64,000 bases of DNA. Origin: Crossaster papposus (taxonomy: Eukaryota > Echinodermata > Asteroidea > Velatida > Solasteridae). The DNA lies in NCBI GenBank assembly GCA_037893245.1, contig JBAIAA010000658.1, positions 682,001 to 746,000 of the forward strand, in the 5' to 3' direction. Below the pieces are notes generated by a model that saw only the letters and a program-made list of their open reading frames with translations, was not told the origin of the DNA and made no database searches. Positions within the stretch are counted from its first letter, which is position 1, and each line of letters begins with the position of its first letter. A program made the position numbers and the translations under genes. Below are positions 9,901 through 53,000 of this stretch, piece after piece.

Positions 9901-12900
9901 GTCCCTGCCTGCTTCAGTCCCTGCCTGCTTCAGTCCCTGCCTGCTTCAGTCCCTGCCTGCTTCAGTCCCTGCCTGCTTCAGTCCCTGCCTGCTTCAGTCC
10001 CTGCCTGCTTCAGTCCCTGCCTGCTTCAGTCCCTGCCTGCTTCAGTCCCTGCCTGCTTTATTGGGTTTCCATGGAATACTACTTTGCATCGTTTTCCTCC
10101 CCCCCTCTTGAAGTGTACATTAGTTTCCCCAATTTTTATCTCTCTATGTTTCTTTAGGCATTCTGACTACATCACCTGTTTATTTTGAGAAACTCTTATT
10201 GGTACCAGAAAGAATTAAAATAAAACTATGTTGCTACATGTATAACAAAATCACAATTGCCGGTTAAATGGGTGTGCGTTGCTTGGCTTATACTTGTCCT
10301 ATCCATGGATGACTGTTTTATTTCTTTTTAAAATACTAAGGAAAAGCAAAGCTCTGTGGGTTGCTTCCTGTCATTTGTCGATAACAGTAAACATTTCATG
10401 GATACTAGAGGCCATGGAACAATTTGTTGTTTTTGTCACTTATTATATAAAGTGAAATCTCACTACACTGTTAGGGTTTTTTGTGCAGTTCTTTGCAAAT
10501 TTGTGCAAATCTGTGTTGGGCTTATGGCTCTAGTTCAAGGCATGCAAAGGCAGCCCACATCATTAATGACATCTAACTGAGTGTACGTACCTCTACTGAC
10601 TTTTCATCTGCTGCAAAACTGTGACCTGGTCTGAAAGAGAGAAAATGAGAATAAACATAAAGGCCCATTACATCACAAACATTGATCCCCCCCCCCCCCC
10701 CCCAAAAAAAATGACGATGTATGTATCTGCCAATTTTTTTCAAAGATTTAAAACGGATGTCGAATAAACATTTCACGAGCAAGGCCCGAAGAATTTTTTT
10801 ACTATCCATGGATGACGCGTTAACCCATCAGGCACAGCAGTTTAATTCCGCGGAGGACGTGTACATGTATATACACTGCAAAAGTTTCCTTGGTTGCTGC
10901 GGTTGACGTGTATTTACACCAAAAGTTAGCAGCTAGCACTGCGGAGGACAAGTATTCCTAGACTGACATGTTTGGCATACACAGCGGTAGACTTAAATAT
11001 ACGTTATATCGTGGTATCACGCTTCATTGATTAGGTTTATTCAACACCCTAGTTCCATTGTCTCAAATAATTTCATACAGCCGAGGATTATCAGCTGCGT
11101 CCAGTAATTTCTTGACATTCAAATTTCTCAACTATTGTTCCTTTTTAATCTCCTTTGAAATTCTGGAAAGGGTTCTTTTCAGCTGGGCTTGCAAATATTT
11201 GTAAATATTACCGCGTACAATTGTACCTATCCCTGTGTGTAGTTCCACGGATGACGTCAGATTTTATGGCGGGTAGCGGTTGACGTAATATCACGCCCCG
11301 ACTGCAGAAGGAAAAAATGCCCTAGACGACATAATGTTGGCAAAAACATGTAAATAACAGTGCTAATAAACTAAGTGTTGGCATATTGTAGTAGTTGCAT
11401 TATCAAAACAGAAATATTTTACTGAAAATAATATTGTTTTAATAATGAATGGGGTTGGAATGGGTAACTAGTCCACAGCAAGGCATTAATATTGCCTTTA
11501 CCCATATTATGTGTAGAAGTGTCATAGCCCAGGCCAGGTTCGAACACCCAACCTGCAGAACTACCCACAGACCACAAATTTAATGCTCGAGACAACTAGG
11601 CCACGACACTTCCACAAATGATGTTTGCATCTTTTAGATTCTCTTGGTTTGAAATTGGAAGCCAGCAGGTCTGGAGAACAGCGTGGACCTATGCAGCCAG
11701 GATATATCCACCCTTCTTAAGAACATGTACCTCTGGGGGATGCTATCAATACCAGGAGCCTTGAAACCCCCTTGAAATCATTGAGAAGGATGACACAGAT
11801 GATGTGAGGCCTATGCATGAAACAGACTTCGCAGTTTAGAACTCTCTTCTCCCTTGCATTCAACAACCTGTTGCAATCTTCCCTCGCCTCATGTCTTTGC
11901 AAATGTGTCTCAGCACCAGTCACATCACCTGAATCTCCGTCTATACACCTACCCTGACTTCTACCCCAGAATCTAAATACCACCACCACTTCTTTCTCCA
12001 GCTTAGTGAGTTGTTGCACAGTATCCGTGTGTCATCCTTATCGGTGAATTCAAGTGGGTTTCAAGGCTCCTGGCATTGATAGCATCCCCCCAGAGGTACT
12101 TAAGGGTGGATATATCCTGGCTGCAGAGCTCCACACTGTTCTCCAGACCTGCTGGCATTACAATTTTTAACCAGAGAATCTAAAAGATGCAAACACCATA
12201 ACCCTAGCTACAAAAACAAAGGTAGCCAACAAGACTGGAAAGGTCTTTGCCGAGTGCTATTACCACGGCTACAGGTCATCCCCAACAGAATCCTGCCCAA
12301 ACGTCAGTCTGGCTTTCGCCCATTCCAATACACCATTGACACGGTGTTCTTCTTGTGAAAACTTCAGGAGAATTGTGTTAAACAGTGGCAACTTCTGTAC
12401 ATACACGTTTGGGTTACCCAGATAGGCTATTGTCAGTTAGATTTGAAGTTTGCTGGTGCGTCAAAGAGGGGTATGTGCTAGCCCTTACCCTGCTACACTG
12501 TGTGCTTCACACTCACAGCTCTGTGAATTTCTTCGACCTGTCTTGTCTCTGTGCCAGGATGAAGGTTAGGCATGTTCTCATCCGGGAGTTCCTGTAGACT
12601 GTTTTATCTGTCATTGTTTCCCACTCTGCAGATGAGCTTTAAGATCTCTGCAACTTATTTGCCAGTGTTTGCTCGGAGTTTGGCATGATCACCAATCAGT
12701 CTTGGCAAGACAGTGCTACTATCACAGGGCCCAGATCCCCTGCCAATGATCACCATCAATGACACAGCTTTGAGCATGGTCAACAAATTTCAGTATATGG
12801 GTTCCATAGTTACAAGCACCAACTCCCTGGATGCCGAACGTAACTCCAGAATAAGTAGGGCTGCAACAACCTTTGGCCAACTCCGTGCCCGCATTTGGGA

Positions 12901-18900: not shown

Positions 18901-21900
18901 CTTGTCATTTTGTTGAACTTTGTTTTGTTTGCAAACAACAAAGAGCAATTTTGATTACTACAATATTTCATTTTGCATTAACTATTTAATTTGTTATGGA
19001 CAGTTCAATAACACTTTATTTTAATTGTCTGTAATTTAGTTAATGCTTTAATTGACATTTGCCAACTAGCACTGTGATTTAGCAAAATATAGGTGTCTTG
19101 AGAAGTAGTTTTCTGACCTGATGCGAGCCGTCAGACGGTGAGCAGACTCCTCAGCATCCAATAGATGCATGTAGGGCTGACGCGTCCCAAAGGCTTGTTT
19201 CTGAAACCAAACATGATAGCACAAGGCATAGTAACAAAATCTACTGGTAACAGAACGACAAAACATCACAACAAAATTGGTTGTAAGTGGATTTCACTAA
19301 TCTTTTCAACAGTTTTTCCCAGACTTCGTTTTGTAAACAAAATCATCCCTCCTTAAAAGTTACAATAGGAATAAAACTGAAGAAATACCACTTATTTAAC
19401 CAATATTTGGCTTGATATTGAAGAGATTGGGGTCAATGTTATTAAAATATATAAAAATCTACTTTGTCACAAATACATTTTCTAGAAAAAGAAAAAAAAC
19501 ATTAAAACTGAAGAGACCTCAATTTTAGAATCTATCTGTTCCCATGTTCCCTTAAAATGTACCAAAAATCCGATGGAATCTAGGATGTTACACCCATTTG
19601 ATTTTGAATATACAATGAAGCAGCTTTTAGTGATACTGCACAGTACAGGATTAAAGATACAACATTCGCTTTTGCTGTGATTTTCAGCACTTTTGGAACA
19701 AAATAGAGAACAGACGACAGGAAATTGTCAGGTTGAGGAAACGGGACTAGTTTGCTGGCACACATTCTTAAAGTGTACACATAAATGATTGTAAACAAAA
19801 TTGTGGACCAAATAATTTTGGTAAATTGGGGTAGAATTTGACAAATTTCCCCCCCCCCACAGTAGTGTGAATGGGGTCTACGAGCGAATACTTACCCTGT
19901 AGAGCGAATACTACATTTGCATTGTTCCCTATGCCGGCAATCAAATTGCTAAGAGTTTTACATACAATAGCACCCCCTGGTGTCCTATCCCAGACGCCCT
20001 GTGACATGCGCACTACGTTAGCGTCCTCTTTTTCTCAAGAGTTACTGGCTTAAGCCCTCAAGAATCAAGTATAGTGGGGAAGAAAGGAGGGATGCTCTAT
20101 AGGCTAAGTATTCGCTTGTAGACCCTTACAAAAGGCCCAAGAGGTGGACACTCCCCTGACATCGTGCGCCCGAATAGATCGCTCGGTCGCTGGCCATCCG
20201 CCTGGCACGGAGCGAATGGCTGTCACGATCCAGCGTGCGATTGTATCGCGAGACACCGGTCGATAGGGCGGAGTTTTTGTGAGAAACAATTTTTCATGCC
20301 CCGTACGAAGTGACTTTGTACGGTTGACATATTATTTAAGTGCCCGGACCGGGCACCAAAGTTTGTCATCTATTTCGGTCGAAACGGACTTGATGTCTGG
20401 GACAAAGATGTCTGGGGGCGTAAAATCCTCGGTTTTTTTGCAAGAAAAACAACCGTAGGGACCAGGCGGACACCCCCTGGCTCCCACCGGATGTGTCCTG
20501 CCTCCACCAATAACGAGTGTAGTTCACTACGCCGTCGGGATGTAGCGACCGCCAACAGAAAAACCACTTTGATGGAGAGTTGCAACAAAGTTAAACAATC
20601 CATCGGCTCGCAAGAGGTCCCAGGATGGAACCAGTTTGCGTACTGGGGGGGGGCGAGTCGTTAACATCCCCTTGATCAGTTGGCTGATCGGATGGTTATC
20701 CGAGACGGAAGAACCGTCCGGAAAACCGAGATGAATCGCAGCGACGGCCGACCAACAGTTTTTAACTGTGGCCGTCGCGAGACCGCTGTCAAAAAGGTAT
20801 AGGAGGAAATCCCCCACCTCCCCTACAGAAGTATTGGGGTGACGAAGGGATTGCCGTCTGCACCATTTAAAGAAATGGCGTAGCCGGCTACTGTATATCT
20901 TTCTGATTGAAGCTCTGCGGGATTGGACTGCAATTGTTGCAGCCCATCGCGAAAGGCCTGCTGAGCAGAGGGATCGCGTGACAGTACCCAGCAAGTCAGG
21001 TGAAGATCCCCCGGAGACGGGTGAATCATCCCCGAGCTGGGCTGATAGAGGAGATCTGAACCAGGAGCCTGACAAGTCAGTGGAACCACGGCTGGCGGGG
21101 CCAGAACGGGGCTATGAGGAGGATTCGGCAGTCCTCCTGCTCGACCTTGGTCAGTACTCGAGAAATGAGAGAGATGGGTGGAAAGGCATAGGCCAGTAGG
21201 CCGTCCCATCTCATCGTCAGCGCGTCGATCTGCCATGAATCGGAGTCTGGGACCCTTGTGCAATAAACTGGCAGCTGATTGTTCGCTCAGGAGGCGAACA
21301 AGTCGACATGGGGCCGGTCGATCATCTTGAACAGTGATCGAGCTACTTGTGGGAGCAACAACCACTCCGTCAAGGCAATCCAGCCTCTGGGCGTCGGCTA
21401 TGACATTCTTTTCGCCCGCGATGTAGACTGACGACAGTGTTCTCCTGTGATGTGTGCACCAGAGGGTGAGGTCCCACGCTAGAGCACACAGACGGCCTGA
21501 CCGAGTGCCCCCCTGGTGATTGACGTATGCCACTACTGTGGCGTTGTCGCATCTTACCAGGACTGCTCGTCCCCCGACATCCGTCTGAAAATGCTGTAGC
21601 GCGTTGAAAACTGCCAGCATTTTCAGGACGTGGATGTGGGACGATCGGTGTTTAAGGGCCCCACACGCCCGCAACCTGTCGCGGGTGGAGGGTAGCTCCC
21701 CAGCCGGAACCTGATGCGTCGGTCGTGATTGTCAACGACGGACGGGGTGGGCGGAAAACACGGCCCTGCATAATATGGGCCCTGACTAGCCACCAACGAA
21801 GGTGGGGGACTAGCCAGGGTGTAGTAGGCACCGGATGGTTGATCTGGTGCCAGCGGGGCTTGTAGAAAGAAAGCAGGTGAAGTTAAATTGGTCTTATCCT

Positions 21901-24900
21901 CAGCCTGCAAAAAACCACTAAGTCCACCATACTGGCCTTAAGGCCCAACAGCCTGATGAGCCAGGTTCGAGCCGGAGCCACTACCGCCGGGAGGAAGAGG
22001 GACACGCACTGTTTAAGGTTCAGCAGGCGGTCCTCCGATGGGCGGCCCAGCCCCTCGAGAAGATCTAGGGACGCACCTAGAAAGGTGGGAACCTGCGAGG
22101 GTATTGGGTGGGATTTCTCGGTATTGATGAGAAATCCGAGATCGGAAGCAAGACTAGTCAGTTGGAGTGCCGCTTCTAACTCCTCCCGGGAATGGCCAAC
22201 GACCAGCCAATCGTCGAGGTACATGAAAATCATGACCCCTTGCCTGCGCAGTGTCGCTCCGATCGTCTTTACGATCCGAGTGAACACCCGCGGTGAAGTG
22301 GACACTCCGAATGGGAGCACTGCAAATTCGTACAGGACACCGTTGGAAACGTAGGAATTTGCGGTGCTCTAGCTTGATCAGTACGTGGAAATACGCGTCC
22401 TTCAGGTCTAGACTTGCCGCTCACGCGGGCATTATGATCGATTCGAGGATGGTCTTCAAAGTTTCCATACAAAATCGTTTTGGACGTATGAAACTGTTGA
22501 GGGGTTTCAGGTTTAATATTGGCCGCCACACGCCAGCCTCCTTGGGGACCAAGAAGAAGACTGACATAAATCCCGTCCAAGTCCCTAATTGGGGGACCAA
22601 ATGCACCGCTCTCCTTAGAAGTGGAGCGTTTATCTTCCCCTCTAGGGAGCAGCGTTTCGATGTGTCGGACGGTATGGGCGTCGGCCGAATAATCATGTCC
22701 GACAGGGGGGGGGGGGGAGAGTCCTCGTAAACTCAAGTGGGTAACTGCTGCCGATAGTTTCAAGAACCAATCAGTCGGAAGTGACCTGACCCCAGGACAC
22801 CAGAAGCAATCGGTCGGAAGTGACCTGACCCCAGGACACCAAGAATTTTTTAAGGCGGCCTCCCACGGGTCCGTCGGTGGGAGGCCGCTTGGAGACGAGC
22901 AAGTCACTTGCGCCATGCCCCGGTGTCCCGGGGAGCGGGCGCCCGGAAACGGCGCCCCGACTGGGAATGCTGTGGTCCGGAGAAACGTGGGTCTGCCGGG
23001 TTTATGTCGGCACGCCACGAAAGCTGCCACGGGCCGCCCTAATTGGGGGTGACGCTGGGGAATGACAAACGAAGCTTGTTTCTTTGTCTTATCCGCGGGT
23101 TTAGGGAGGGCGGCTTGCGGCTTTTTAAAGTTTATTTTGTCCGTGGCCTTGAGGCGTTTTGCCTCAGCCTCCATGGATTTCTGGAATGGGGAGTGTCCAG
23201 GCGTTTTTACGTGCTCCCTGTGAAGGGAGGAAAAGCGCGTTGAGCACATTGGCGCGTCGCGTTGATGTTGCTAAGGTCGCCACCTTAGTGAACTGGTCGA
23301 GAATAGAGCATAAGACGTTATCGAGACAGTGGAGAGCCGCCACCATCATGTCGGCTAATACCGCCGAATCTTCTTCACATCCTAACGCCAGTTATTCGGA
23401 TAGGAGAAGAAGAAACGAAGTTTCACACATACCCATGCGCGCCAACGAGTCCATTTTTCGGGGAAAGTTCTCGTTTCCTACGGTTCTTGTCCGTAAAAAA
23501 AAGTTTGGAGGACGTCGCTTCTCTGTCAGCGGCGAGTTGGTCGGTGCCCGAGTCCGGCAAAATCGGGGTGGAAAAATATTTTGCGAAATCCACTGATAGA
23601 AATCGAAAATAAGAGTCCGTGCGCTTAGAATAGGCACTCCATGTCTTTGCGCGCATTACCCCGCCCATGCGGTCGACACACACACGGTCCAACGGCATTG
23701 TGGGGAAAACCTTGGCCGCGTCTGTCGCCTGTCCCGATCGCTTCTTAAACGACTGACGTTCAGGAAGGGGAGGCCCGTTGTCAGCGGGAAGATTCATTAC
23801 TCTGATCATGTCCCGCTGGTCCAGGCGTAGTTCTTTTTCTGACACTGACAAGCACTGCATATTAAGGGATCAACTCGTCCTCTCCGTCTGCGGTATCATC
23901 CGAGCACGGGGGCGAGATGTCACCGGAGAAAGAGAACCATGCCCCGGGGACGAGATAGCGCCGTCACGGTGTCCCTGTACCAATCAACGATCGAACACAC
24001 CGGTGCACGGCTAGGCGGGGACGCCGGTGCACGGCTCTCCGTGTACGGCCGTGCCCGCTGGTCTGATGGGTGAGAGCTGCAATTCTGGGGGGGACTCCGG
24101 TGCACGGCTGACCGTGTACGGTATGTCCCGTCGGCCTGGTGTCATCCAGCCGTGACCCCAATGGCTGGTGGGTGAGTCGGATAGGCCTTGTCCCGGATCC
24201 CACAACGAGGCCACGAGGGAATGAAACGCTGGAAATTGGTTCACCACTCTTGTGACGTTTAGCAAGGTGTGACCATCTCGAGGACCCGCTAGAGCTCGTA
24301 GATGACCGGCGGGAAAGGCGTTTCTTTTTTAACTTCTTCTTTGAAGATTGGTCCCGAATTGTCTCCGAGGATGGCTCGGAAGACAATCGGGCAGCGGGAA
24401 TGCCAGAACAACGGATAAATTCCGATGAATAGGTAGGGCCCTCAGAGCATAACAGCCCGGGGGGAACCCCAGGAGTCTTGCTCCAAACCCGCTGAATAGT
24501 TTGGCCGGCCGACAGCGCTCCAGGGCCCGATAGCGTAGGCGGGCGCTGCACGGTCAAGCTGGCTGTATAAAAGCCCATCCCCAGGCCCCGTGGTAGCCAC
24601 GGGGTTGGAAGGGCCCGGGTGCACCGAGCCGTGGAGGGGTAATCCTTGGGCTTTGTGTGCCCCGTAAACGAATCTAAGACGGGCACGGTGCGCTCCGTAG
24701 CGGAGCCACTCTTGGCCGTACGTCCCTTCTTGGGTACTGCCCCGGCACCAGACGATACCTTTGTCTTGCAGGGGCGTTTTCCCTTCAATTGGGCGGACCC
24801 GTGAATACTGACCGGAGACGATGGGGTTGTACGGCCCCCCGCTCGGTCAACGGATCCGTCAGCTCCGACAGCCGACAGTGGCTGAGGGGGCTGACTAGGG

Positions 24901-27900
24901 GACTGCTGCTGCGGTAACGTACCGTCACTGGTGCAGTCCCCCGAGGACTTGGGCTTGTCTGGTGGGATGTAAGTCCCTCCCTTACCGACACACCCAGTCC
25001 TCCCCAACTTACTAGATTTACTCATTTAAATCTAACTTCACTAAAAATAATTCACTCAAATATCACTCTATAAACTCTACAACACTCACTTTATCTTATA
25101 GTTTTCTCACAGCAATGAGGTATCGGTTAAAAACCTGTGAAAATCAGGAGCTGAAAATTTCACGTCGTACCTCGCCTGCGCTAAGAGAAATGCTAACGTA
25201 GAGGATGCTAACGTAGTGCGCATGTCACAGGGCATCGGGGATAGTACACCAGGGGGCACTATTGTAGGTAAAACTCTTAGCAATTTGCCTGCCGGCATAG
25301 GGAACAATGCAAATGTAGTATTTGCTCTACAGGGTAAGTAGAATGCTGTAGACTCAGTGTTTTCCAACGATGGTCAGCTGACCATCAATGGAAATTAATA
25401 GAAAAATCACACGTTTCCTGAAAATGACGGCACATTTTCACAGAATGCTTGAGGCTATTTTTCACTTAAGTCAAGTAAGGTATTTTATAATAATTGGGTT
25501 TTGTTTATGTTTGAAAATGTATTATGTTTAAGGAATTCCTAAACATTTGAGTGAAAAGCCATAAACGAGTATTTAACTGTTTTTCTCAATGAGATTAAAT
25601 CAGTTTTACTATTAGGAGGAAAACAAAACAAAACAAACACATTTTGAAGGACAATTTGAGATTACCTGGAAAAGTTGAGCCAGATACAGGAGATTTCTAG
25701 AGGGATCTTGTTGATCTCGAACATACAGGAGAATTATTTCCAGAAGCTCACACTGATGAAAAAAAAAAAAACTCATCCAAAAAGGTTCAGCAAAAAAAAA
25801 AAAAAACAAGACAAAAACAAGACAATAAAAAAAAACACTATTAAAACACAAAGTTATCCCATGTGCCAAAACCCAAAAATTATACAATGACAAATGTTCA
25901 GTTTGATTTCGTGAGATGTAAACAAATAAACTGTGTTCAAGCTACTAAATTATGTTAGATTCAGCAGACTTTGCCCTTCATGAAGCTGCTAAAGCACAAC
26001 AAAATGCTTAGCATAAAAATTGTTCATTGGCAAAAACAGGGTTAAAAATCAGGTGGTATTGTTTTTGACTAGTATTCAGCTGGTTTTTGCTTTATAGTAG
26101 CCTGAAAGATAAATGGAGTTTTGGCTGGTAACCTGTTTTTACTGAGCAAGACTTGTTTGTGCTCAGAAAATTTTGTGCTTAACAGTTCCATGAAATTGGC
26201 CCCTGATAAATTAAGCTTTCACCAAGTATGGGTTCGGAAATAATCAGAGTTTATGCAGTCACTGGGAAGCAGGAAGGAGTGGAAGGAGGGGAAAGGAGAG
26301 AAGGAAAGAAAGAAAGGAGGGAAGGAAAAGAGAGTTACATGTACAAATGCAATACATGTACCGGTACTGTAGTTACAAAGTTACAGAGTTATGCAATACT
26401 AAACCTGTTCTGTAAGGGCTTGCAGACACCATCGGATGCTATGCCTCTCACTCTGTATTTAAGGCAAACAGAGACCAGTATTTTTTCATATCTCAGAAAC
26501 ACAATATGCTCCATTCAATTTTGTTTTTGTATTAGGCCAGTTTTATAGGTCATGTACAGTACATTATATGCAAAATGTTGATAAATGTGTGATGTTATCA
26601 TGACGACGTCATCAAAAATAACTAGTTTTTTTCACACATACATGTACATGTATAAGGGAAGGTCCGATCATCTCCCTCAGGCCAGATTTTTTTTATTTAC
26701 TGGATTACAAACCTGTCGACTCTGAATAATGCAATTTCAAAACAAAAATAAAAAGAGAACAATTACATTTTTTTCCCGGCGCAGGATTTTCAATATTTTG
26801 AAAAAAATCAATAAAGGGACTGTATTTTTCCCCTACTGCAGAAATCTCAAAGCTATAGAATCGGACTCAATCACTGCACGCAGGAAAATATTTGCGTGTA
26901 TGTGTAGCCAGCGCGTGGTTGGATCAGGCAATTGTAAAAAATCAGTTTAATATACCCGGTATGTAAACTTTAGCACCCCCCCCTATATATACTGGAAAGT
27001 ATCTGTGAAAGTTATAAGTTGACGTCATGTGCTAAGGGTCTATCCCCCTAAAATATTGGCTCTAGAACCGCTCCTGACCAAAGGCCGATTAACGACCATG
27101 CACTGTCCAAGCAATTAGCACCATTCTTCTAAATAGGTGTTCCATTGGCAAGATTAATCAACTGACATTATAACAAACGCCATTTGATGACTAATACTGC
27201 TCTCTAATGTGTACAGTATGCAAGCTTTTGTTATAAATGGATCACTAACAATGCTTTTTAACGCACAAGGTTATTACCAAAACCTTTCGTTGTAATGGGA
27301 ATTTCCTACAATCAGATTTTGTCATAAGTGAATTTTGTCAATAGAAACGTGCGTAGTTTTGCCTAGACCAAGGATACGTGTTTGTAATAACCGGAATTAT
27401 ATCCGTTTTCGTAATAACGGGAGTCGACTGTAGTTCTGTTTTCTTTGTTTATTTCTAATAAGACAGCATTCCCACTTTTGTTTTATGGTGTCATGAATAC
27501 CCAGGTTGATCTAGATACAACTACAAGGAAGAGACTTGCTCATGTTTTGTAAACATGGTGCAAGTAAGAGTTTCAATGATAACGTGTATGTACTGTTCCT
27601 ACCAGTATGACCAATCAATTGGTAATGTTTTGTCAAATAACTAGAATTAAGACCTGAATAAAGAAGTATAAAAGTACACTGCATTAAAGATGGAACACAA
27701 ACAATTTACGTAGCCTCGTTTGTGCAATTTTGTACCAACCATCAATGAACCCCTCTTATGTCTGGTAGGTACCGGTGTGTTGAAACTGGTCTCATACTGC
27801 TGCAGTAACTTATCATACACCTTGGCCTTCTTGAGATTTAAAACACACTCCAAGTACTGCTCCTGTTCACAAAGAAAAATACTTACATTGAGGTATTTTC

Positions 27901-30900
27901 TCTAGCCAGTTTTGGTAGCCAGTTTTGGTAGCCATAATTTAAAGTTTTGAGGGCACTTTTTGTATTATTTAGATGTACATATTTTAGGTCAAGGAATTGA
28001 ATGGTTCTACTGAGAATTTGATTCATCTGCGGCTATGTTGGATCCCAAGATGTCATTGGTCCCTAAATCATGCTACAACCACTGATACAATACCAATATT
28101 TACGTGAAATTAATACATAATACAAATCATGAGAATTCGGGGATTCACAATTTAGATCGGCACGATCGGCATGCATATGATCGAGCCAGCGAGATCATGC
28201 ACAACCATCCCTTCTCTGCTATATCTACCAATTCCTTTTTTTACTTTCCAGTGCATGGAAGTCCCCGATCGGGCCAGAAACTTCTTTATTTCATCAACAC
28301 GAATTCTCTTGAAATTGAAACTGGCCGCCATATTCAGGTTATTGGAACGTGTCAACTGTGAACTGAGAAATTGGCCTCTCTCTGCTGCCCTCTTGGTGGC
28401 GCTCTGAATTGTAACATAATTTGGCCTACACAGTTACAGGTATGACTGAACTGCATATGTATTAGCTCTGGTTTGTTTATTGCATGCTATTAAATTAATT
28501 TCTACAACACCCGAATAAATCCCCACTGTCTGTTTGGTGGATCGATGATTACGCGTATTAAATTATTCGTCCCAACGCACGCGAGTGGCCGGACCACAAA
28601 AATGGAAGTTCCATTGCACGGTGAATAGAACTTCCATTGCACGGTCACGCCATCGGTCGCACTTTGACCAATCAGGTGACAGATGGAATGTTCCATTCCA
28701 CTTGGCTTCGCCTCGTGGAATGGAACATTCCATCTGCCACTTCATGAAATGTATTAGTACCATTGCACTCATAAACATTCATTATTTGTATACTATTTGC
28801 CCAGATAATTCCAGGAAAGGTAATACTTCCATGCCCTATAAGTAACTGCAGTAGCGGGATTCCCCATCTTCTAGGCTATGCCTATTGTCTCCGGTTACTT
28901 TGTTTGTGTGCTCCCTCCATGTTTCAATCATGTTGAAACAGTTCAAAGTAGTTGATTTTACCAAGCCTGTAACTTCCACGCCAAAGATGCCACTGGACTA
29001 GGAACTTTGTGTTCTGTGCCAAGTTGATATAGGAGAGTCCCTACAGTGTCCTGCTAAAACGAAAAGAACTGATGCAGGTGCTGGATACCAGACACTTGAA
29101 GACAATCTGTCAGCATTCAGGAAACTAGAAAGGCTGCCACAAGATGTGGACTTCCGACGACTGGATGAAGGCCAATGGATTGCTGCCACTTTGGCTGCCC
29201 ACCAAGCCAAGTGGCACAGGTCATGCAGGGTAAAATATAACACTACCAAGCTACATACCGGTATGTACAGCGGGTACAGCAGAGAGGTCATTCTGAGGGA
29301 AGCCCTGTCCCCAGTACAAGCACAGATGAGTACAAGCGAACCAGACTAAGGCAGCTTGTGTAAATAACATACGCGACAATGTGTGTTTCTTCTGCCACCA
29401 ACAGCTTGGTTCTGAGTTTCATCAAGTAGCGACACTTGAACTAGATAAACACATTCGCAAGGCTGCAGAGTTTCTAGAGGATACCACTTTGTTAGCCCAA
29501 CTGAGTGCTGGGGACATGGTGGCAAGCGAGGCCAAGTACCACGAAAAATGTTTAAAATCCAAGTACAACCGCGTGAGGGCAGCAAAAAGGCTTGCTGAGC
29601 AAAGCCAGAGCACAGTACAGTAGATGTCATTTCAGCAGTAGTCCTGGCTGAACTGATAACGTACATAGAGGAAACTGCTAAAAAGGAGGACACTGCTCCT
29701 GTATTCAAGATGGCAGACCTCACCAAGCTTTGCACAACGAGAATGCAACAGTTCAGAGTTGAGCTGGAAACACGAGTCCATACAACTCAATAAAGCATAT
29801 CCTGGCACACTTCCCTGATTTACAGGAGCACAGGAAGGGAAGAGATGTCCTGCTGGTGTTTGAGGAAGACATTGGCAGTGTCCTTGCCAAGGGATGTCAA
29901 CATGACATTGACAGTGATGCTGTGCACCTGGCACGAGCTGCACGGATTATCAGGAAGGATATGTTCCAGTCATCTCAGCCTTTCAATGGTTCCTTCGCAG
30001 ACAAATGTCAAGAAGAGTGTGTGCCACAACTGCTGCTGACATTGGTCTCCAATGATGTTAGAGGGCGCCGGCATCAGAGATCAGGCACGTCAGTCATCGG
30101 CATCGGCGTCTGTGACAATAGCTCAACTTCTCAAATACAACAGTGTGAAGCATGAGGAGAGGTGCAGGCACAGACGTACGACACAGCATCAGTCAAGAGA
30201 CTTCCTTGCCAATATATCTTTGCTTGATGCTTCATGCCCATACGAGAAAGAGGGAACTGGTTGACACAGTATCTGGACTAGGGATCAGCATTTCATAAGA
30301 TAGAGTGCTACAGATCTCTGCTAAGCTGGGAAACGGGGTTTGCCAGCGCTTTCAGTACTAGTACTAGTACTAGTACTAGTACTACCTCGAAATAGTACTA
30401 GCCCGGTGTACAAAGTCTAGCGAAAACTGCTCCGGGCTACCCAGACCCACTTCCTTGGTTGCCCGGTGGGCTAGTGAAAAATTCAGTAACCTACCTGTAA
30501 AGGTTTAGTTCAAAATACATGTTAAAATTGTTATTGTCTTTTTGTGTATTAAATAAATATCGGATCAGTATAAACTGAGTATAAACTGTCTTTTGTTTGT
30601 GTTTTTCGGAATGATTATCGCTAGCCTGGGACTGGGAGCGCTCGATCCACGCGTGCATGCAGTGCACTGCGATCTCATGAACAGAGTAGACTGGAGGGCT
30701 TCAGTGAGATTAGTATAGTATAAACTACGGCGCAGGGTACCGCACATACATGTATGTGCACTATTCTCTTTCACATCGTTAAGCCTTTCTTACCATAACG
30801 GCCCACTGCGTAGCTGTATAGTACATGAGCGTTCTGCCGTGTCACTAGTAGTAGCGTCTGATAAAGAGTCTGTTCAGAACAGCGCCCTCTGTGTACGTGA

Positions 30901-33900
30901 CTACGAATGTACGTACGTGTACGTACCACTGACCTCTAGAGGTCTTTGGTACGTACATGTACGTGCGCGCGGGCGCCAAACGAATAGTTTTGTGCATTGT
31001 GCATACGGGCTAGCAAAAATGTAAACGGGCTAGTAAAATCTGCAGTTTGCTAGCCCGGTGGGCTAACCAGGAAAAAAAAGTTAGCGCAAGGCCTGAGGTG
31101 GTCTGTCTCCCAAAGCTCCGTGATGAGGTGTTCACCACATCAGCTGTGGATAATATAGACCACAATCCCAGCTTCACGACAGCACACGACTCCTTTTACG
31201 GAACTGGTATTTCATTGATACAACATCCAGACTATTACAATCAAGGCACAGACCGAGGTACATGTATTGTCATCATTGGGGGTGTATCCAATGTCAAGAC
31301 TATGGGTGACCTTCCACAGTATTACACAGATGTACAGCCAGTCACTTCACCTGCCAAAAAGCCCCCTGTACCAGCTGGAACCCAGGCGTCACTGCAGAGG
31401 AATCCTGCACAAGCTAAACTGCATAAAGAGAAGAGGTGGCTTTAGGCTGTGAAGGATGCATGTGACAGTGATGACACGCAGAGTCCAGGAAACATTTCTT
31501 GGGCTGCACATCACGCAGAGAGCCAAACAGCCCAGGATGTTACTATCACAGTCACACACACTGCCTTGTTTCCCCTCTTCCATGACCAAGCTCACTCAGT
31601 GGCAATGATCCGCCATGCCATGGATGTCGTGAAAGCAGCGATCAATGAGCTAAACCTGGATATACACCCGTCGTGACACTGGACCAACGACAATATGCGA
31701 TCGCCAAGCAGGTGCAATGGAACTGGCCAGACACACATGGTGAAGATCTATTCGTGATCATGCTGGGTGGTCTACACAGAGAGATGGCAGCTTTGAAGAC
31801 AGCAGGAGACTGGCTGCAGGACAGTGGTTGGACACAGGCATTGGTTCAGGCCGAGATAGCAACAGCTGGCACAGCCGACTTCTTGCATGCAGCTCACGTA
31901 CAAGACGCGCCTACCAGGTAACTGCTGCTGCCCTGCACATACTTCAGCATCATGCATATGACAGATACAACGAAAGAGCGACTGCAAGAGATGAGGAACC
32001 ATTGGAGTTCGAGGCATAGTGTGGCCTGAGAGCAGAGGCATGTCCCCAGTTTCAGTACTGGAGCACTGTACTTCACCTGGAGCTCTGTATACTCCTCTAC
32101 AAACGTTCACTTAGAGAGTCCAACTTCAGGCTCTACATGGACACCCTACCAGAGCTAGCTGCATGGTTTGCCGCATTGGACCACGTCCACTATGCTCGCT
32201 GGTTTCCAGTGCACATCAGGGACATGGTTAGCCTTGCAGAGAAACACCCAGATGTTGCTGCCAAGTTTCAGGCAGGCCACTCCACATCCAAGAAGACCAG
32301 GCATGCTTTTTCCGCCATCGCCTTAGACCAGGCACATGAACAAAACAATGTCACAGTCAAAGGCGATGGCAGAGCAGTGAGCCGCACTGAAAATCCAAGT
32401 GCCCTTCGACGGTGGATGGTGGCTGGCCCCGAAGTTGCTCGGATCATCACATAATTTGAGACCTCACAACAACTGCACCAAAGGAGAGAGCACACCCAAC
32501 ACCATGAGCAAACCGACGGTGTACAGAAGAAGTTCGTCCAAGATGTCCGTGCACTGACAACAGTCATCGAAGAGATGGGCAACCCATTTGAAGAGGAAAG
32601 CACCGACTTGCTGGTTCTGGACACACACGAGATCTTGGGCCCGGCTGCTGTAGAGACTGTGCGTACAGCTGTGCAGATGGGGCAAGATCAGTTCCATTTA
32701 TTTGAGAAGGAACGTCTGGCAGACAGATCCAAACCACTCAATTATGTAATCAAACGCAACAAACTCCCGTTGTTTGCATCCATCAAGGCCAAAGCTGCCC
32801 ACAAGAGCAAGCAACAACTAGCCTCTGCAAAGAGCGATTCAGAGCTCTTTTCCAGACTATACATCGCATGCCAAACCAGAGATGGCGATCTCGAGCACTT
32901 CTTTAACCCTTTGCACGCTATCGGCGACTCCAGTCGCCCAGCGCATTTATTCCCACACTGCTATCGGCGACCACAGTCGCCCGCGACAACGTTCTATTTA
33001 TAAATGAATGAATATGACAAACCATTGACCCCTGACCCTCACCCGGGTACCATTGAATAGATGATTACGAGGCTAACGTTGTTCAATCATAAATTCACAC
33101 TCGTTTCTTACAAAATTCTCTGCTATTTTCGATTGAAAATCTGTCCGTTCCGCTGTTCAAGTGTTCAATAGACGCCGGAGCTGCATTTCAGGAGATTTTC
33201 GGGGACTCAGACTCTGGAAATTCGGAATTTGAAGGCCTTTTTCAGGACGATTATGTCAACGATAGTGTCGACAACGAGTATGCCAGTGTGTACGAGAACG
33301 TGTTGAAGGTTCTATTGATGACGATGGTAGTGATGGGGCACAACGCGACGATGGCCCCGGTGAAGTTCGCCAGCAAGCGGGAGGTGTTGCGGCTTCTAAC
33401 GCGGCTCGGATCGCAGCTCGTAATGATGCATTTCGGAGGGCATACCACCACGACTAGCTGATAATTTTAGCCATCCTCACGGCCACCAATGGATAGGAAA
33501 TTTCATACTGAACAAATAGTTTATGTTGCATTTTCCTATAAAACACACTTATCATTGAGTAAATAGCTTCGGAACATAATAGTGTGCATTACTTAGTGAC
33601 TTTCATAGGAAATCCAGCACCATGGGAATACGTGTGTATATGAATGGTAGCGTGCTAAGGGTTAAACATCCACCAGCACTCTCGCAAAATGGACGACTAC
33701 GCTTTGGTACCAAAGCTGACTTGCTGGAGCCCTTAGAACAGCTTGTCGAAGCAAAGTTGGACCCACCACAAGTCTTTTCTGTGATCCTCGATGGAGCTGC
33801 AATAGTTCAAATGCCGAGTCCAGGCCAGAGCAAAATATTTTTTGGCTATGCCACAGAAGTATTCGTTCCATACATTCTGTCACAGCTCAACACTGATCTC

Positions 33901-36900
33901 GTCTAGATCTAGTGTGAGACCGCTATGCAAAGTCAGGCAGCCTGAAGGCAACTGCAAGGGCCAACAGAGGCAAGGGAATTCGAAGACGTGTCACTGGCTT
34001 TGCTACCGGGGAACTGGAACAGTTTACGCCGTGTCGACGAGAACTAGGAGGAACTCTTCAGCTTTCTGTCTAAGCAGGTAGCGGAGTCCATCGATGTTCC
34101 AGACCAACAGGTGGTTGCTACTGACGGTGAACAGGTAATCTGTATGATATGTATTGCCCTGTACAGATGTACTTACCTACTTTGTTAAATGATGCACCTG
34201 AAATAAATTAATAAAGGTCAATGCCATGCAGATTCATGTCAGATTTGTTTCGTGCCCACCTCCACAAACTCATTCAGAATTCCGCTGCTCGACTGATAAC
34301 TGGAACCAGATTTCGGGAGAGTATTACTCCAGTGCTTCGGGATCTACATTGGTTGCCAGTTGAACAGCGGATTCGATTCAAAATCCTTGCCATTACATAT
34401 AGGATAATTGAGAATGTCAATGCGCCGATCTATCTCACTGACCTGGTTGGTCTCCGCGTTCCGCAGAGATCAACAAGGCAGAGTAGTGAGATTCGGCTGG
34501 AGCCTCCACCTGTGAATTCTACGAGGACTAAGTACTATGGAAATCGTGCTTTCTCAGTTGTTGCTCCCATGGTATGGAATGATCTTCCATCAAACATTCG
34601 TACAGCCCACAGCTATGAATCTTTTAAGTCATTGGTTAAAACTCATTTGTTTCGTTCTTATTATGGTAGTCGTTGTTTACTTTAAGTTTTTTATTCTTCT
34701 TGTTCAACTTTTTAACTTTAACTGTTATTGTCACTATGTACAGTGTGCTGAGATAATTGTATGTGGTGCACTTTAAACAATAATTGATTAGATTAGATTA
34801 GAATTCACATATTACATTACGGTAGTTTTAATGCTTACACCAACATGTCATTGCTGTACCACCCTGTGAAGACACAGCCTCCTTGGCACCGTGCAATCAC
34901 GAGGAAGCAGACACACGTATGATATGGTCCACACAGCAGCTGCTATAAAATCTGGACACCGCAGAGTACTCATCTGCACCGTGGACACAGATGTGGTGGT
35001 TCTCGCTGTGTGGATGGCCCAGGAGCTTCATGAGGTAGTGGACGAACTCTGGCTAGCGTTTGGGACTGGGAAGAATTTCTGCTACATAGCAGCCTACAAG
35101 CTGGCTGCTACCCTGGGGCCGGACAAAGCCAAGGCACTGCCAGTCTTTCATGCAATCACAGGGTGTGATACCGTCTCGAGCTTCGCAGGTCGTGGCAAGA
35201 AAACAGCATGGGCAGTATGGGAGACTTTTCCAGAAGTGAACAATGCATTCCTGGACCTGGCATCTGCACGAATTGAGGTTTTGGAGGATACATTGGCAAC
35301 CCTGGAGAGATACGTAGTGCTCCTGTACGACCGTACATGCACATGTTCTGAGGTGAACCTGGCAAGAAAGAAACTCTTTGCAAAGAAAGTGCGATCACTT
35401 GAAGCAATACCTCCAACACGGGCAGCCCTAGAACAACACGTGAATAGAGGAACTTACCAGGGTGGGCATTGTTGGGGACAGTCTCTTGTCCCACACTGCA
35501 CTCTCTCATCACCATGCGACTGGGGGTGGGTGGACAATGACGGACAGTTCGATCCTCTGTGGACAACACTACCAGAAGCTGCCAAGTCCTGCTATAAACT
35601 GATCTCGTGTGCGTGCAAAAAAGGTTGCAGTGGGAGATGCAAGTGCAAGAAAGCGGCTCTACAATGCACAGCACTATGTGCCTGTGATGGTGACTGCTCA
35701 CAATGAGTACAGAACTGTGTCACTTGGCATGACTTCATGCAACACGCTAGCTAGTCGTCTTGCTGAACGTGTGATGCACAACATACATAATATCTATGTG
35801 GAGTATCAGTTGAATATGAATTAAAACATATTTCAATACAACCATTCAATTCCTTGACCTCAAATGTGTACATCTAGACACCAGAATAAAGTCTACATCT
35901 GACATAGAACCAGATATATCGGTCTGCAGATTTCTGGAAGCTGCCATCTTGAAATCCAATATGGCGGCAGTAAATCAACTTCTAAGTATAACCATTCAAT
36001 TCCTTGACCTCAAGTTTGTACACCTAGACACTAAAATCAAGTCTCTAGCTGGTATAGAACCAAAAATATTTGTAATTAAAGATTTGTATAGCGACAATTT
36101 TGAAATCCAATATGGCGGCCAGAAAATGTTCTCAATATAATATTCTTTCATTCTGCCAAATTTGGTGCTTCCATCACAAAATGCACAATTGGTTTGCTAT
36201 GCCGCTGCACTATATGTACAACGTGATGAAAATAAATAAGGGATATTAAAGTCTTTGATTTAATAAAGTTTTTATGAAATTTTGTTTGATCTGTGTTTCG
36301 TTTTTGACGCCTTTTTAATGCGTGTAAACGTATGTACATGACGTTAACCCTAACTCCCTCACCATTGTTATTGAACAATACAATTCCTTCAAAATCCTCC
36401 AACTTCCTTTGTTGTGTAAGGAGTTAGGGTTAAACATATGTACATGATGTACAATATTATCTAAAATAAAAGAATTATATAAGAAAGTCAAGATAGTTTT
36501 GTGCATAATGAAAGTTACTCAGTATTGTGTTCTTACACATATGCAGGGGGGCCGAGGGTCTATTTTTCACAGTGCATTGTGAAAGACTGTCAACAAATGT
36601 TCGCTAATTTTCTACAATGCTTGCCTAGTCATCCTATGTGGCAGAAACACCACTCATACTACATGTATTATGCACCATTGCTCCTTAGGCTTGCACGCGG
36701 TGCTAAATTTGAGGTGATTTGGACGGTAGTCTACAAGGGGCCGATACTCGCATGCTAATTCCTACTTTTGCCCAAACCCAAAAGTCATACTTCTCTTTGC
36801 CTTTTCCTACTTCATGTAACTCTACATAAACCCTGCCTACTGGGATTTTGTCCTTCAAGCGAGACAATTGCAACTCCCTATCCTAAGCAAAGAGGGTTTA

Positions 36901-39900
36901 ATGGATTGCCCAGACCTTCCGGCTAATAGACGGGATCCGCTGACCCCTTCAGTGTAGCGCGCGTGCGGCCCCAGACATCTAAGGGCATCTCAGACGTGTT
37001 ATTGCTCAATCTCGCATTGCTGAACGCCACTAGTCCCTCTAAGAAGTCGGCGCCTATTTAGCAACTATTTAGCAAGCCAGACACTTGTCCGTTATTGGAA
37101 TTAACCAGATTGTCACAATAAAACCACCTTTTCTTTATATTTAATAGGCAGTGTAAATAATTGTGCATTTTTAAAAACCTGTAGATCTATGTATAAGTGG
37201 GTCAGAGCCCAAACCCATATCAATCCGTGGTTGACAGGCCAAGAGAAATTCCATATACATGTAGTTCTACAACATGTTCCTATAATCTCCACACACACCA
37301 TACACATACATTGTACATGTACCTAGTATCACCAGTGGTCTGGTGATGGAGATATTGTGAATATTCATGAGTGTGGGTTTAAATAGGAAGTTTGAATTAG
37401 TTTGAATTAGTTTGAATTAGTTTGAATGAGTGTTAGAAATGAAATGTAAAGTGATGCAAGGTTGTTGGAATTGTCTCCAAGATTCCTATCTGTGTGGACG
37501 CGCCGGGCACTCTGTTGCTGCAGCAAAACAGTTTTTATACTTTAGGGTATTTCAGACCCTATGATAATAACTCTTGCAAGCAATCTGGCTTGTAAAATCG
37601 ATCCACCAACTAAGAACGGCCATGCACCACCACCCACAGAATCAAGAAAGAGCTGTCAATCCTCACCCTATAAAACATTTAACCGGCGGGATTAAATTGA
37701 ATTAAATATTTTAGCGGTACTGGGATAAATTAACTGCAAGTAACCGGGATCCCGGTTAAATCCAACCGGGATCCCGGTTAAGTCCAACCGGGATCCCGGT
37801 TAAGTCCAACCGGGATCCCGGTTAAGTCCAACCGGGATCCCAGTTAAGTCCAACCGGGATCCCGGTTGGACTTAACCGGAATCCCGGTTGGATTTAACCG
37901 GGATCCCGGTTCAATTAACCGGAATCCCGCTAAAATTTTACCTGGATACCGGTTAAAAAAATCCCGGATAATCCCGCCCAAAAATACCACCAAAAGTTTT
38001 TTGCCTGGAATACCGGTTGATTTCCTATGGGGCACTGTGTCCGGGCCGGTTTTCCTGTGTCAAGTCAAAATTAGCCGCAGGCTCCAACTTCCTTTAAGTT
38101 TTAGCTTTGCAACCATAAAGACTTTGGTTTCCCGCATACTGGCCGCCGCAGTATATGCCCCCCCCCCACAAAAAAATTCTCACACCATTATAAGGAGTGT
38201 TCTGAAACTAGAAACTGCCAAACCAGACATTGTGTTTGGTATCACTGTATAACTTGCCTTGACCAAGGCTTTAAAACTTGTTTCCTGAAGCGGTGAGCAG
38301 CTACTACTGCTGGCTCATTTAGCCTTTTGGGCTCAAGTTTTGATAGCCTTGCACACATAAGCAGTGCATTGGGCGGGTCTCCATTAATAATATGCATAGT
38401 TCATGAACAGTACCATACTATGTACCAGTTATGAAACAACCTGAATCCTCCATATCCTTTTGTTAGCGTTCATGCAAATCCCAAGTAACCTCATCCTCTA
38501 AAATCCTTTTGTGTCACATTGAGCCTTATATTAACCTGGATTTCCCATATTCCAGCAGGGGCGAAAACCCTGAGTAACCTCAATCCTTAAAAATCCTCCA
38601 ATGTTTCAACTTCCAAAGAAACCTCAATTCTTCAATTTCCTGCATTAATTTTGCAAAGAGAATTTTCGAAGGTTAGGGTTAATGTTTATTTTGTTGCTAC
38701 CTGATAGCAAGACTTTCATTCTTTAGGCTTGTCTATAGTGTGAGATAAGATTGTAAGGTTTGTAGAGTACAAGCTTTGAATGCCTTACCTGGAATGGATG
38801 TTCTGCGTCTCTGTAGAAACTCAGCAGGTGTTTGATGCAATGAAGCAGCATCATACGCTCCGTGAAATAATATTCCCATACCTACAAAATCCAATCAGTA
38901 AAATCAATTCAAATAAACAAAAGATAAAACAGCAGTTAGAAATATCGTTGAGAGTTATACAGGTAGGTTCTCATTGGTTGAGACTTGATCACGAGGTGGG
39001 GGGGGGGGGGGGGGGGAGGGTATTAACGTGATATAAAGGCCGGCTTCGAGAACAAGCGAATATGGCTCCTGAACCAGCATTAATCAAGTATCATGTACAT
39101 AAGCCAATGATTGCCTAAATAATAAAACAGTCCTTCGGTAACTTGTAACAATACAGCAGTACACATGCGTGTGCCGTTAATATGAACATAAAGGTCTGTA
39201 AATATTTCTGAATAAAAAGTCACAAAATTTGGAGCTTTTTAACTATTTATTTCATTAATAAAAAATAACAGTGTGAGAACCCGGTCTTCACTTTGTGACA
39301 ATGAACGGGTTGGGAATGGCCGCTGTATGGTCCGAGCCAAAATTTATTGATTGTTGATTGATTGGTTTGCATTACAAAAGTACTGTTATGAGTATATATG
39401 TACATGTATGTTGGTGTCAGTTTGAATGCAGTCACTGCATTTTCAATATGGCTATAGTACTACAGCTAACAGCTTGACAGCAAACATTCATAACCAAACT
39501 CATTTTATAACCAATAGTTTCGCAGAGGTTCAATGTCGCTTCCGACGAGACGGGCTGTGAAGGAGATGTCGACCAGAGCACAGAGGTGCATTCAGGCACG
39601 CGGGAACGGGGGGGTGCTGCCACCCCCTAGGATTTTGGGGTGGGGGTGCTGCAATGTACTAAAGCACCCCCTACTTTTGAGACCTAGTATACGCACATCT
39701 TATCATAAGTACTTGAATACTTACGTGATCAAAAATAAAGATCCTTAAAAATGGAAAACTATAATTATAAAATAGGCCTATACAAACAATATAAAACTTT
39801 AAAATGTTCCATTCCTGTGACGACGTTCTCGAAAGCGCCATTCAAATACACCCCCATGCATCGCGCACTGTGGCCCAAATGCATGAACAACGTCGTCCAT

Positions 39901-50000: not shown

Positions 50001-53000
50001 AAGTGGATACGACTACGAGTTAAAGGAAACATGCAGTCTAACATTTTCATTACGCATTTTTGTTTTAATTTAATAGATTTATGTGTATTAAATGTGAATA
50101 AAAAGCAAAACTGGTTCTAGTGTACGTTTAGTGTGGTAATTTGTCGTCCAAAAATTGACCCCCCCTTTTTAAATTTCGCGGCCACTAAAAATGAGTGACG
50201 TAAACCGAGGCAGGACCCGGACAAATTCTCAATAGTCGGTATGCAACGTCTAGGTACGAGACGGGTTCCCGTGGCAATGTACGCACATTGTTGTGTGTTG
50301 ATACACCCACAGTGTACGAATCGCGTATGCTTTGTGCACGGTAATCGAATTTCACATGGACGATCGTGAAAGTTCTTCCTCGGTTTTTGGTGATTCCGAC
50401 GAAAACAGTACTGATTCGTCCGATTCGAATCACAGTATTTCTTATTCAGAAACGGACTCTAAAGATGGGGTCCCTCAAGGCGCTCTAGGTTGAAGCACGA
50501 CCGCTCAAAATGTTCGCTGCAAAGGGCCGAAAATCACTAGGCACGCCCGGACCATTTCGCTCTGGTAAGCTTTACTTTGGCTGTCCAAATCCTCCGATAT
50601 TTAGGATCAGCCGGAAACAAATGAAGCCTTACTTGTCTCGTGCGTCGTCACATGGCAGCAAAGTGTCATCCAAGACTAATTCAAGTGGTCACACAGATGC
50701 AGAATTCAAAAGAGCCAAACTCAAATGCCACCAAAAGGCACTTGAAAAGAAACAGGAGCTTAAGGAGAAAGAACTAAAGCTACGACAAGAAAAGGGACGT
50801 CTCAACTTAAACACAGAAATATAAATCGAAGAGACAAAACTGGCCATACTTGAGAGAATCGAAGAAAAAAAAAGATCAAGACTCGTGCGTCTCTGGGCCT
50901 TTGTGATAACGACAAGCGGCCAAGCGATGCGGTCATTGGTTGAGGCCTAACCAGTTGTTTCACGATGATGCAATAAAGCCACCAGACCAGAAAAACAACA
51001 AGAGTCGCAAGTATGCCCAGGACAAGATGGAAGAAACCTGAATCAAGGTGTTGCAACGAACACCACAGGTATGCTAAATGTTATGAAGCAACAGGGCGAT
51101 CTAACTAAACTGCTCTTGGAGGCTCAGGTAAAATCCAATTTGCCACGCAGAGCCATACCAGTGAATGGCTGCGACCCCTTGGATTATATTCGACTTGGCT
51201 GACTTTGTTTCAACACGGGATTGAAGAAAAAAACACAAATGACAGAGAAAGGCTCTACTTTCTTGAGCAGTACACTACAGGGGCATCTAAGGCTCTGGTT
51301 CGTACATGTACATGTAGTTGTATGCAACTACCGCTAGACAAGGGTTATCAGCAGGCCAAAGAGCTGTTGAAAAAGAAGTACGGCAACAAGTATCATATAA
51401 ATGAAGAAATGATGCGAAAAGCTAGAAAATGGCCTGAAATAAAAAACAACGACTCGAAAGCATTGGAGAAATTATCCTTGTTTCTCCATGAATGCGCTAA
51501 CACTGTGACTTCACTGGATATCAAAGGCCTGTCAATTTGGCTTCCGTCTGAATCATTCTGCCTCGGATATCCTTGCGTACCCGTCTCACTGTTGGCACTC
51601 AATCTTTAGTCAAATGTCAGAAGCACGTGCTGTTGCAATGGATATCAAGATTCTCCTGTCCAAGTTGAAGATCAACGGCATTGATGGAAAACTACTTAAG
51701 TTGATTTTAACTTACCTCTGCAGGTGCTAAATTTGTGTGGTCATATAGCTTGTCAGACTTCAAGCCTGAAATCCATCAATGCTGGTGTCCCACAAGGAAG
51801 CATTCTCGGACCCACTCTTTTCCTTTTCTACATTAACAACATTACTAATTCTATTTAACACAGTCATATATTCTGTGACTCTGCATCATCAGTTCAAGTA
51901 TGAGGATATGGCGAGTCCTAGAAAATTTTATCGATACCATCCACCTCTGTGCTTTGATGGCCACATTCTTGAAGAAGTTTGTAAACTCAAGCTTCTTGGG
52001 GTCACATTCACATGCTCTTTGAGCTAGAAGTAACACATCCAGTCAGTGGGTAAAGCAGCTTGCCAGAAGTTATTTATTCTTAAAAGAATGACATTTTCCA
52101 TGTCAACACGGGACCAGGTAATGCTGTTCAAGTCATATATGTGTACATGTAGTAAGATGGAGTATGCTCCCCTCTGCTTGAGGCATCGCCTCCTGATTGC
52201 TACCTTGACATCTTTCATCATATCCAAGAGATGTCCGTGGCAATTGTAGGTGTTGTACTAGTCGAGGAGGCTGTAAATGTATATAACCTTCTACCCCTTT
52301 CTCAACGGCGTACAAGTCAGTGCTGTAGCCTGCATCTATAAATTGGATTATATACATGTAGTGCATCTGCACTCAGAATCATGCCAGTCACTTTTGAGAA
52401 GTCTTCTTATAGCACGAGATTTAATTTCTAACAACTGTCGTCAAGCACTTCGTTCCCATGCAGCAGTACGTCTGGGTAGGCACTCACCACGTTAGGGGGA
52501 CAGGCTCTTTTGTTTGGAAAAGACAGACCGAGTAGTGGGGACATTTTCGAGTCCCCATAGCGCGTTGGGTGTTCAGTAAAGGTAGAACAAGGTAAAATCG
52601 GGTTAGGGTATAATGAAAGAAAATGTAGGAGAGGACAAATTAGGGTGATGCTGAAAATTTTAGAATTGTTGAGTGTTCTGAGTTTCAGATTAGAGATATT
52701 TCAGTTTACACACAAACCCTATGGGTTGTCCCCATAACGCTATGTACATGTACCAAAAGAATGAGTGTACTCTCTACAATAATCTCTCCCTCCTGGCGTT
52801 ACAGAGCTCGACAAATCCCGGGCCCGGACAACCACGCCAGGCCTTCGGGCAACCAGAGTTTCCCGTGCTAGAGCCCGCCGGACCACCAACTGTATTGCAC
52901 ATGTTTTTCAGAGAATTAACTTAACAATCATAGACCAGAACACAGTTACACAGATCTGCAGGTACATGGTGTGTACAAGCAAAAATAAAATTAAACATTC

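Follow-up and report, generated by a model that had tools for sequence, protein, structure and literature searches.

A 64,000-nucleotide stretch of Crossaster papposus DNA (contig JBAIAA010000658.1, positions 682,001 to 746,000; hereafter "the window") contains the remains of a cut-and-paste DNA transposon, very probably one of AcademX type within the Academ superfamily, with a DDE half and a flap endonuclease-like (FEN-like) half in one protein. An earlier note on the window had described a broken mobile gene in which a FEN/XPG-type nuclease might take the place of a DDE transposase, and had known of no transposon class of such make-up. The class appears to have been described already and the find to be mostly ordinary, one more dead copy of a very probably known class. 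The same genome also holds copies whose open frames are full length, together with near-identical copies in differing surroundings and exact target duplications, so that the role of the flap-endonuclease-like half could be examined.

Relatives were compared in an alignment (A2) of 38 sequences picked for full length, comprising 34 of 120 listed relatives and four from the C. papposus genome (P0002 entering without the first zinc module). The protein order was two zinc modules, a DDE/RNase-H-like core, a FEN-like nuclease, and a CXC tail. Both N-terminal C2HC-like modules proposed in the earlier note were recovered as C-x2-C...H-x2-C, each of the eight residues being retained in 35-38 of the 38 sequences. 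The proposed C-terminal CXC domain stood as a cysteine array but matched no Pfam model (E ≤1 for window pieces, E ≤5 for four intact proteins), and its likeness to the Tesmin/TSO1 CXC domain, a name that UniRef gives to two fish relatives (P0021 and P0151), lies in cysteine spacing only.

The acidic blocks LDGAA (Asp codon at 33790), HEEAD (34901-34912), VDTD (34984 and 34990), and TGCDT (35167) were present in the window by translation in the order first reported, within stop-to-stop frames from 27000-37500, and are not a product of chance because their acidic residues were identical in 38/38 sequences. The spacing reported earlier, about 26 residues from EAD to DTD and about 60 from DTD to GCD, was near that of the intact relative P0001 (1,543 residues, encoded by the copy in locus L016), where the steps are 24 and 58. 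An extra FEN-type block, W-D-x-Y (D1188), was found in all 38 sequences and was not recognisable in the window copy. Residues D1145, D1188, E1280, D1282, D1306, D1308, and D1366 (38/38) fit, by sequence, the seven-acid metal-binding pattern of FEN1, and the invariant K1196, R1200, and R1203, which follow the second acid, presumably correspond to FEN1 residues. Fold searches with models of relatives returned a PIN-like FEN fold, consistent with the FEN/XPG-type nuclease first suggested. FEN1, EXO1, and XPG resemble the region in fold over 250-260 residues and in the order of acidic residues, but identity in the rows quoted for these three enzymes was just 13-14%, and the nuclease here is part of a transposon protein. 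The likeness is one of predicted fold and residue pattern.

The half upstream of the nuclease carried D517, D690, and E909, identical in 38/38 sequences. In the model of relative P0015 (m22c106d732d6) the equivalents are D155, near the end of strand 149-156, D333, right after strand 329-332, and E552, in helix 547-559; strands 173-180, 291-294, and 357-360 follow the RNase-H order in this prediction, and some 185 residues, all helical, separate them from the helix with the glutamate. Such a strand order is typical of DDE cores, for example those of hAT, Transib, and RAG1, and Transib/RAG1 and hAT also share the all-helical stretch ahead of the last acid; the window family differs from these transposases in its fusion to a FEN-like nuclease. 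The sea anemone relative P0201, named from Actinostola, bears a precomputed PF13359 label, presumably denoting a DDE transposase family, which may reflect either a fusion or an erroneous gene model. The suggestion that a PIN-fold nuclease stands in for the DDE transposase, the upstream half being merely structural, could draw on a genuine nuclease fold and acid set and on a DDE assignment based on model topology and invariant residues without a significant fold match. This is very improbable, and the nuclease as sole transposase was rejected, because the same protein has the invariant D-D-E set in RNase-H strand order with the glutamate in a late helix. Furthermore, the segments around the three acids were the most conserved of 12 compared (mean pairwise identity 0.67, 0.60, and 0.67, vs. 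0.58 for CXC and 0.51 for the nuclease), and short fixed target duplications generally suit DDE strand transfer.

Mobility was examined in the C. papposus genome (1.02 Gb, 1,841 contigs), where the C-terminal frame gave at least 142 matches, including the window and three copies (C343, C25, and C162) that each appear as two; seven matches have stop-free frames of more than 1,400 codons. Twenty ten-kb stretches and four short ones were inspected for ends, and both ends were read in ten separate insertions (L016, L017, L020, L022, L024, L025, L026, L027, L028, and L031). The count leaves aside L029 and L030 (same flanks as L028, counted once), L018, L019, and L021, while L023 and L032-L035 gave no clear end pair. 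Loci L018 and L019 agreed over 9,977 of 10,000 bases, and some loci such as this pair are probably duplicate haplotype contigs. Conversely, L016 and L017 shared 6,026 bases at 99.95% identity and diverged abruptly beyond that point, identifying separate insertions. All ten started with TAGTG and ended with CACTA, with six different terminal sequences further inward, and each was flanked by an exact 3-bp direct duplication (CAT, GTA, CTA, CAT, CTC, ATA, GAT, TAT, TAC, and TAG on the strand read), compared to 2/90 matches when the left flank of one copy was paired with the right flank of another. L017 sits between direct repeats and its duplication is readable as 6 bp. Element length was 5,577 to 6,814 bp in the six copies with both ends in one locus. 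The middle base of the duplication was A or T in all ten insertions. A multi-copy host gene family devoid of mobility would accord with a window copy that on its own is missing one end and with the listing of some relatives as ordinary predicted proteins; ends shared despite differing flanks, together with duplications in 10/10 insertions, make this hardly credible and it was rejected, in agreement with the mobile element originally proposed.

The Academ superfamily and AcademX lineage are reportedly treated by Kapitonov and Jurka in 2010 and by Kojima in 2020, and the Academ nuclease is XPG-like. The family was filed as AcademX because the nuclease, the DDE-type half, the 3-bp duplications, and the length all fit descriptions of that type. 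Passages of Kojima (2023; PMC10045372) give duplications of 3 or 4 bp for the nuclease-encoding AcademX and 9 or 10 bp for AcademH, a difference linked to the encoded helicase and nuclease, and those seen here were 3 bp in 10/10. Academ is placed among the superfamilies with a DDD/E transposase in a passage of PMC9587614; on this point the family showed three invariant acids in RNase-H-like order but no significant fold match. A passage on a bivalve survey gives a mean Academ length of 5,565 bp (PMC10294476), similar to the lengths above. Terminal inverted repeats are a further likeness to Academ, the ends here being TAGTG... with several terminal sequences. The comparison by description established no difference; in the subfamily of the window copy, the nuclease region is interrupted by an intron-like gap of 181 bp. 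The passages of these three sources do not spell out the AcademX protein make-up, and Academ is absent as a whole word from PMC11071193. The earlier view that the make-up matched no described class therefore gives way to a class that is very probably Academ/AcademX.

Relatives were numerous, with 379 proteins found by the nuclease half and 441 by the DDE half at E ≤0.001 (120 of each listed). Among the matches listed, names include hake, hagfish, limpet, sea spider, sea squirt, eel, and lancelet as well as carps, crabs, sea anemones, and a coral. Since the nuclease half escapes recognition by Pfam, databases label them hypothetical, uncharacterised, or CXC proteins. A separate, undescribed superfamily only resembling AcademX in make-up and duplication length is conceivable for an assignment made on features, but is improbable, as all four features agree with the partial statements on Academ/AcademX cited above and a family with relatives named from so many animal groups would hardly have been missed by Repbase.

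Several results weigh against the AcademX assignment. The name was assigned from features and descriptions of the class. The nuclease matched no Pfam model, XPG included (E ≤1 for window pieces, E ≤5 for four intact proteins), and the A1 profile found no PDB chain at E ≤1, another PDB sequence search giving a single row at E 0.71. For the DDE half, Foldseek rows were insignificant (HzTransib, E 0.68; RAG1, E 2.2), the best 50 rows in each of two fold searches contained no DDE transposase and were filled by the nuclease domain, and VIA fold-search rows covered the nuclease alone. Its one Pfam sequence match was DUF6589, in 28/50 members at E ≤0.1 (best 4e-08). Finally, the window copy, with its 5' end missing, itself displays no duplication.

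For an AcademX-type protein, the zinc modules would probably recognise the ends and the CXC tail would probably bind DNA. Strand transfer would fall to the DDE half, whose site would most likely cut and join the ends at positions staggered by 3 bp, while trimming of the other strand or of flapped intermediates would most likely be left to the FEN-like site. A tentative and rather doubtful extension is a single-chain transposase with a pair of nuclease active sites, of which the FEN-like one cuts or trims the strand left by the DDE site, thereby fixing the 3-bp stagger and freeing the element from host flap nucleases.

Features of the decayed transposon copy in the window (numbering of the 64,000-nucleotide stretch)
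Feature	Position	Strand	Basis
Decayed transposon copy	27967..36212	+	blastn of L031 element vs. window; six main collinear pieces, 90-94% identity
N-terminal C2HC-type module 1	29002..29253	+	tblastn, translation; Cys/Cys/His/Cys retained in 35-37/38
N-terminal C2HC-type module 2	29363..29629	+	tblastn, translation; Cys/Cys/His/Cys retained in 37-38/38
Insertion A	30354..31088		Gap of ~740 bp vs. L031 element; edges +/- ~10 bases
DDE/RNase-H-like transposase half	31089..32540	+	tblastn; D, D, E codons 31149, 31682, 32338 in three different frames
Insertion B	32907..33661		755 bp; TTAA flanking both sides; inverted ends CCCTTtGCACGCTA
FEN/XPG-like PIN-fold nuclease region, interrupted	33670..35500 (end approximate)	+	tblastn, codons; relatives' fold matches
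Intron-like gap	34135..34846	+	Common to L031 (181 bp there, GT...AG, L031 5963-6143); swollen in window by insertion C
Insertion C	34269..34799	+	Gap vs. L031; inside intron-like gap; resembles non-LTR retrotransposon tail; frame 34215-34685
C-terminal CXC-like cysteine array	35587..35703	+	Translation; nine Cys positions in 37-38/38 relatives
Surviving 3' terminal inverted repeat	36196..36212	-	Identical 17 bases at both L031 ends

The nearest relative of the window copy by blastn was the L031 copy. The window copy has no counterpart to the first 394 bp (5' end) of the L031 element, and a target duplication is therefore not demonstrable for it. The surviving 3' inverted repeat was the sole window match allowing up to three mismatches (mean expected 0.08). 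Inverted repeats were also present at 27957-28023 and 35833-36069 but were rejected as element ends; they are repeated units internal to the ends, and similar units occur at internal positions in the L031 copy. By tblastn, P0001 mapped collinearly onto 28876 to 35697 with matches scattered over all three forward frames (residues 7-130, 163-252, 250-425 with 309-396, 432-495, 497-680, 682-763, 764-1097, 1105-1262, 1259-1286, and 1286-1541), confirming that the gene is broken; judged from these matches, the window copy derives from a single long gene that has since decayed. The earlier feature list thus held for the acidic blocks, modules, and array but had missed the W-D-x-Y block, the DDE half, three nested insertions, and the intron-like gap.

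Insertion B was assumed to be piggyBac-like from its signature, and insertion C, which had no Pfam match, resembles a non-LTR retrotransposon tail. A palindrome in insertion A at 30911-30964 has arms of 32 bases that are 91% complementary. The gap in L031, with its GT...AG ends, is probably an intron, and since it is present in the window/L031 subfamily and absent from P0001 and P0003, an intron gained or lost within the transposon family is suggested. Pfam searches of the window pieces gave weak rows only, under the cut-off, and a tRNA scan found none.

Elsewhere in the window, the minus strand at 20527-22368, in a G+C-rich block, matched reverse transcriptase (PF00078, E 1.8e-12); adjacent frames gave an RNase-H-like match and a weak one of phage-integrase SAM-like type, and the region presumably belongs with DIRS-type tyrosine-recombinase retrotransposons. 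A frame at 51109-51609 had a weak match, under the curated cut-off, to DUF1759 (E 7.4e-05), a gag-like piece common in BEL/Pao elements. Tandem arrays were located at 9833-10058 and 37742-37957, with units of 16 bp and 22 bp, respectively.
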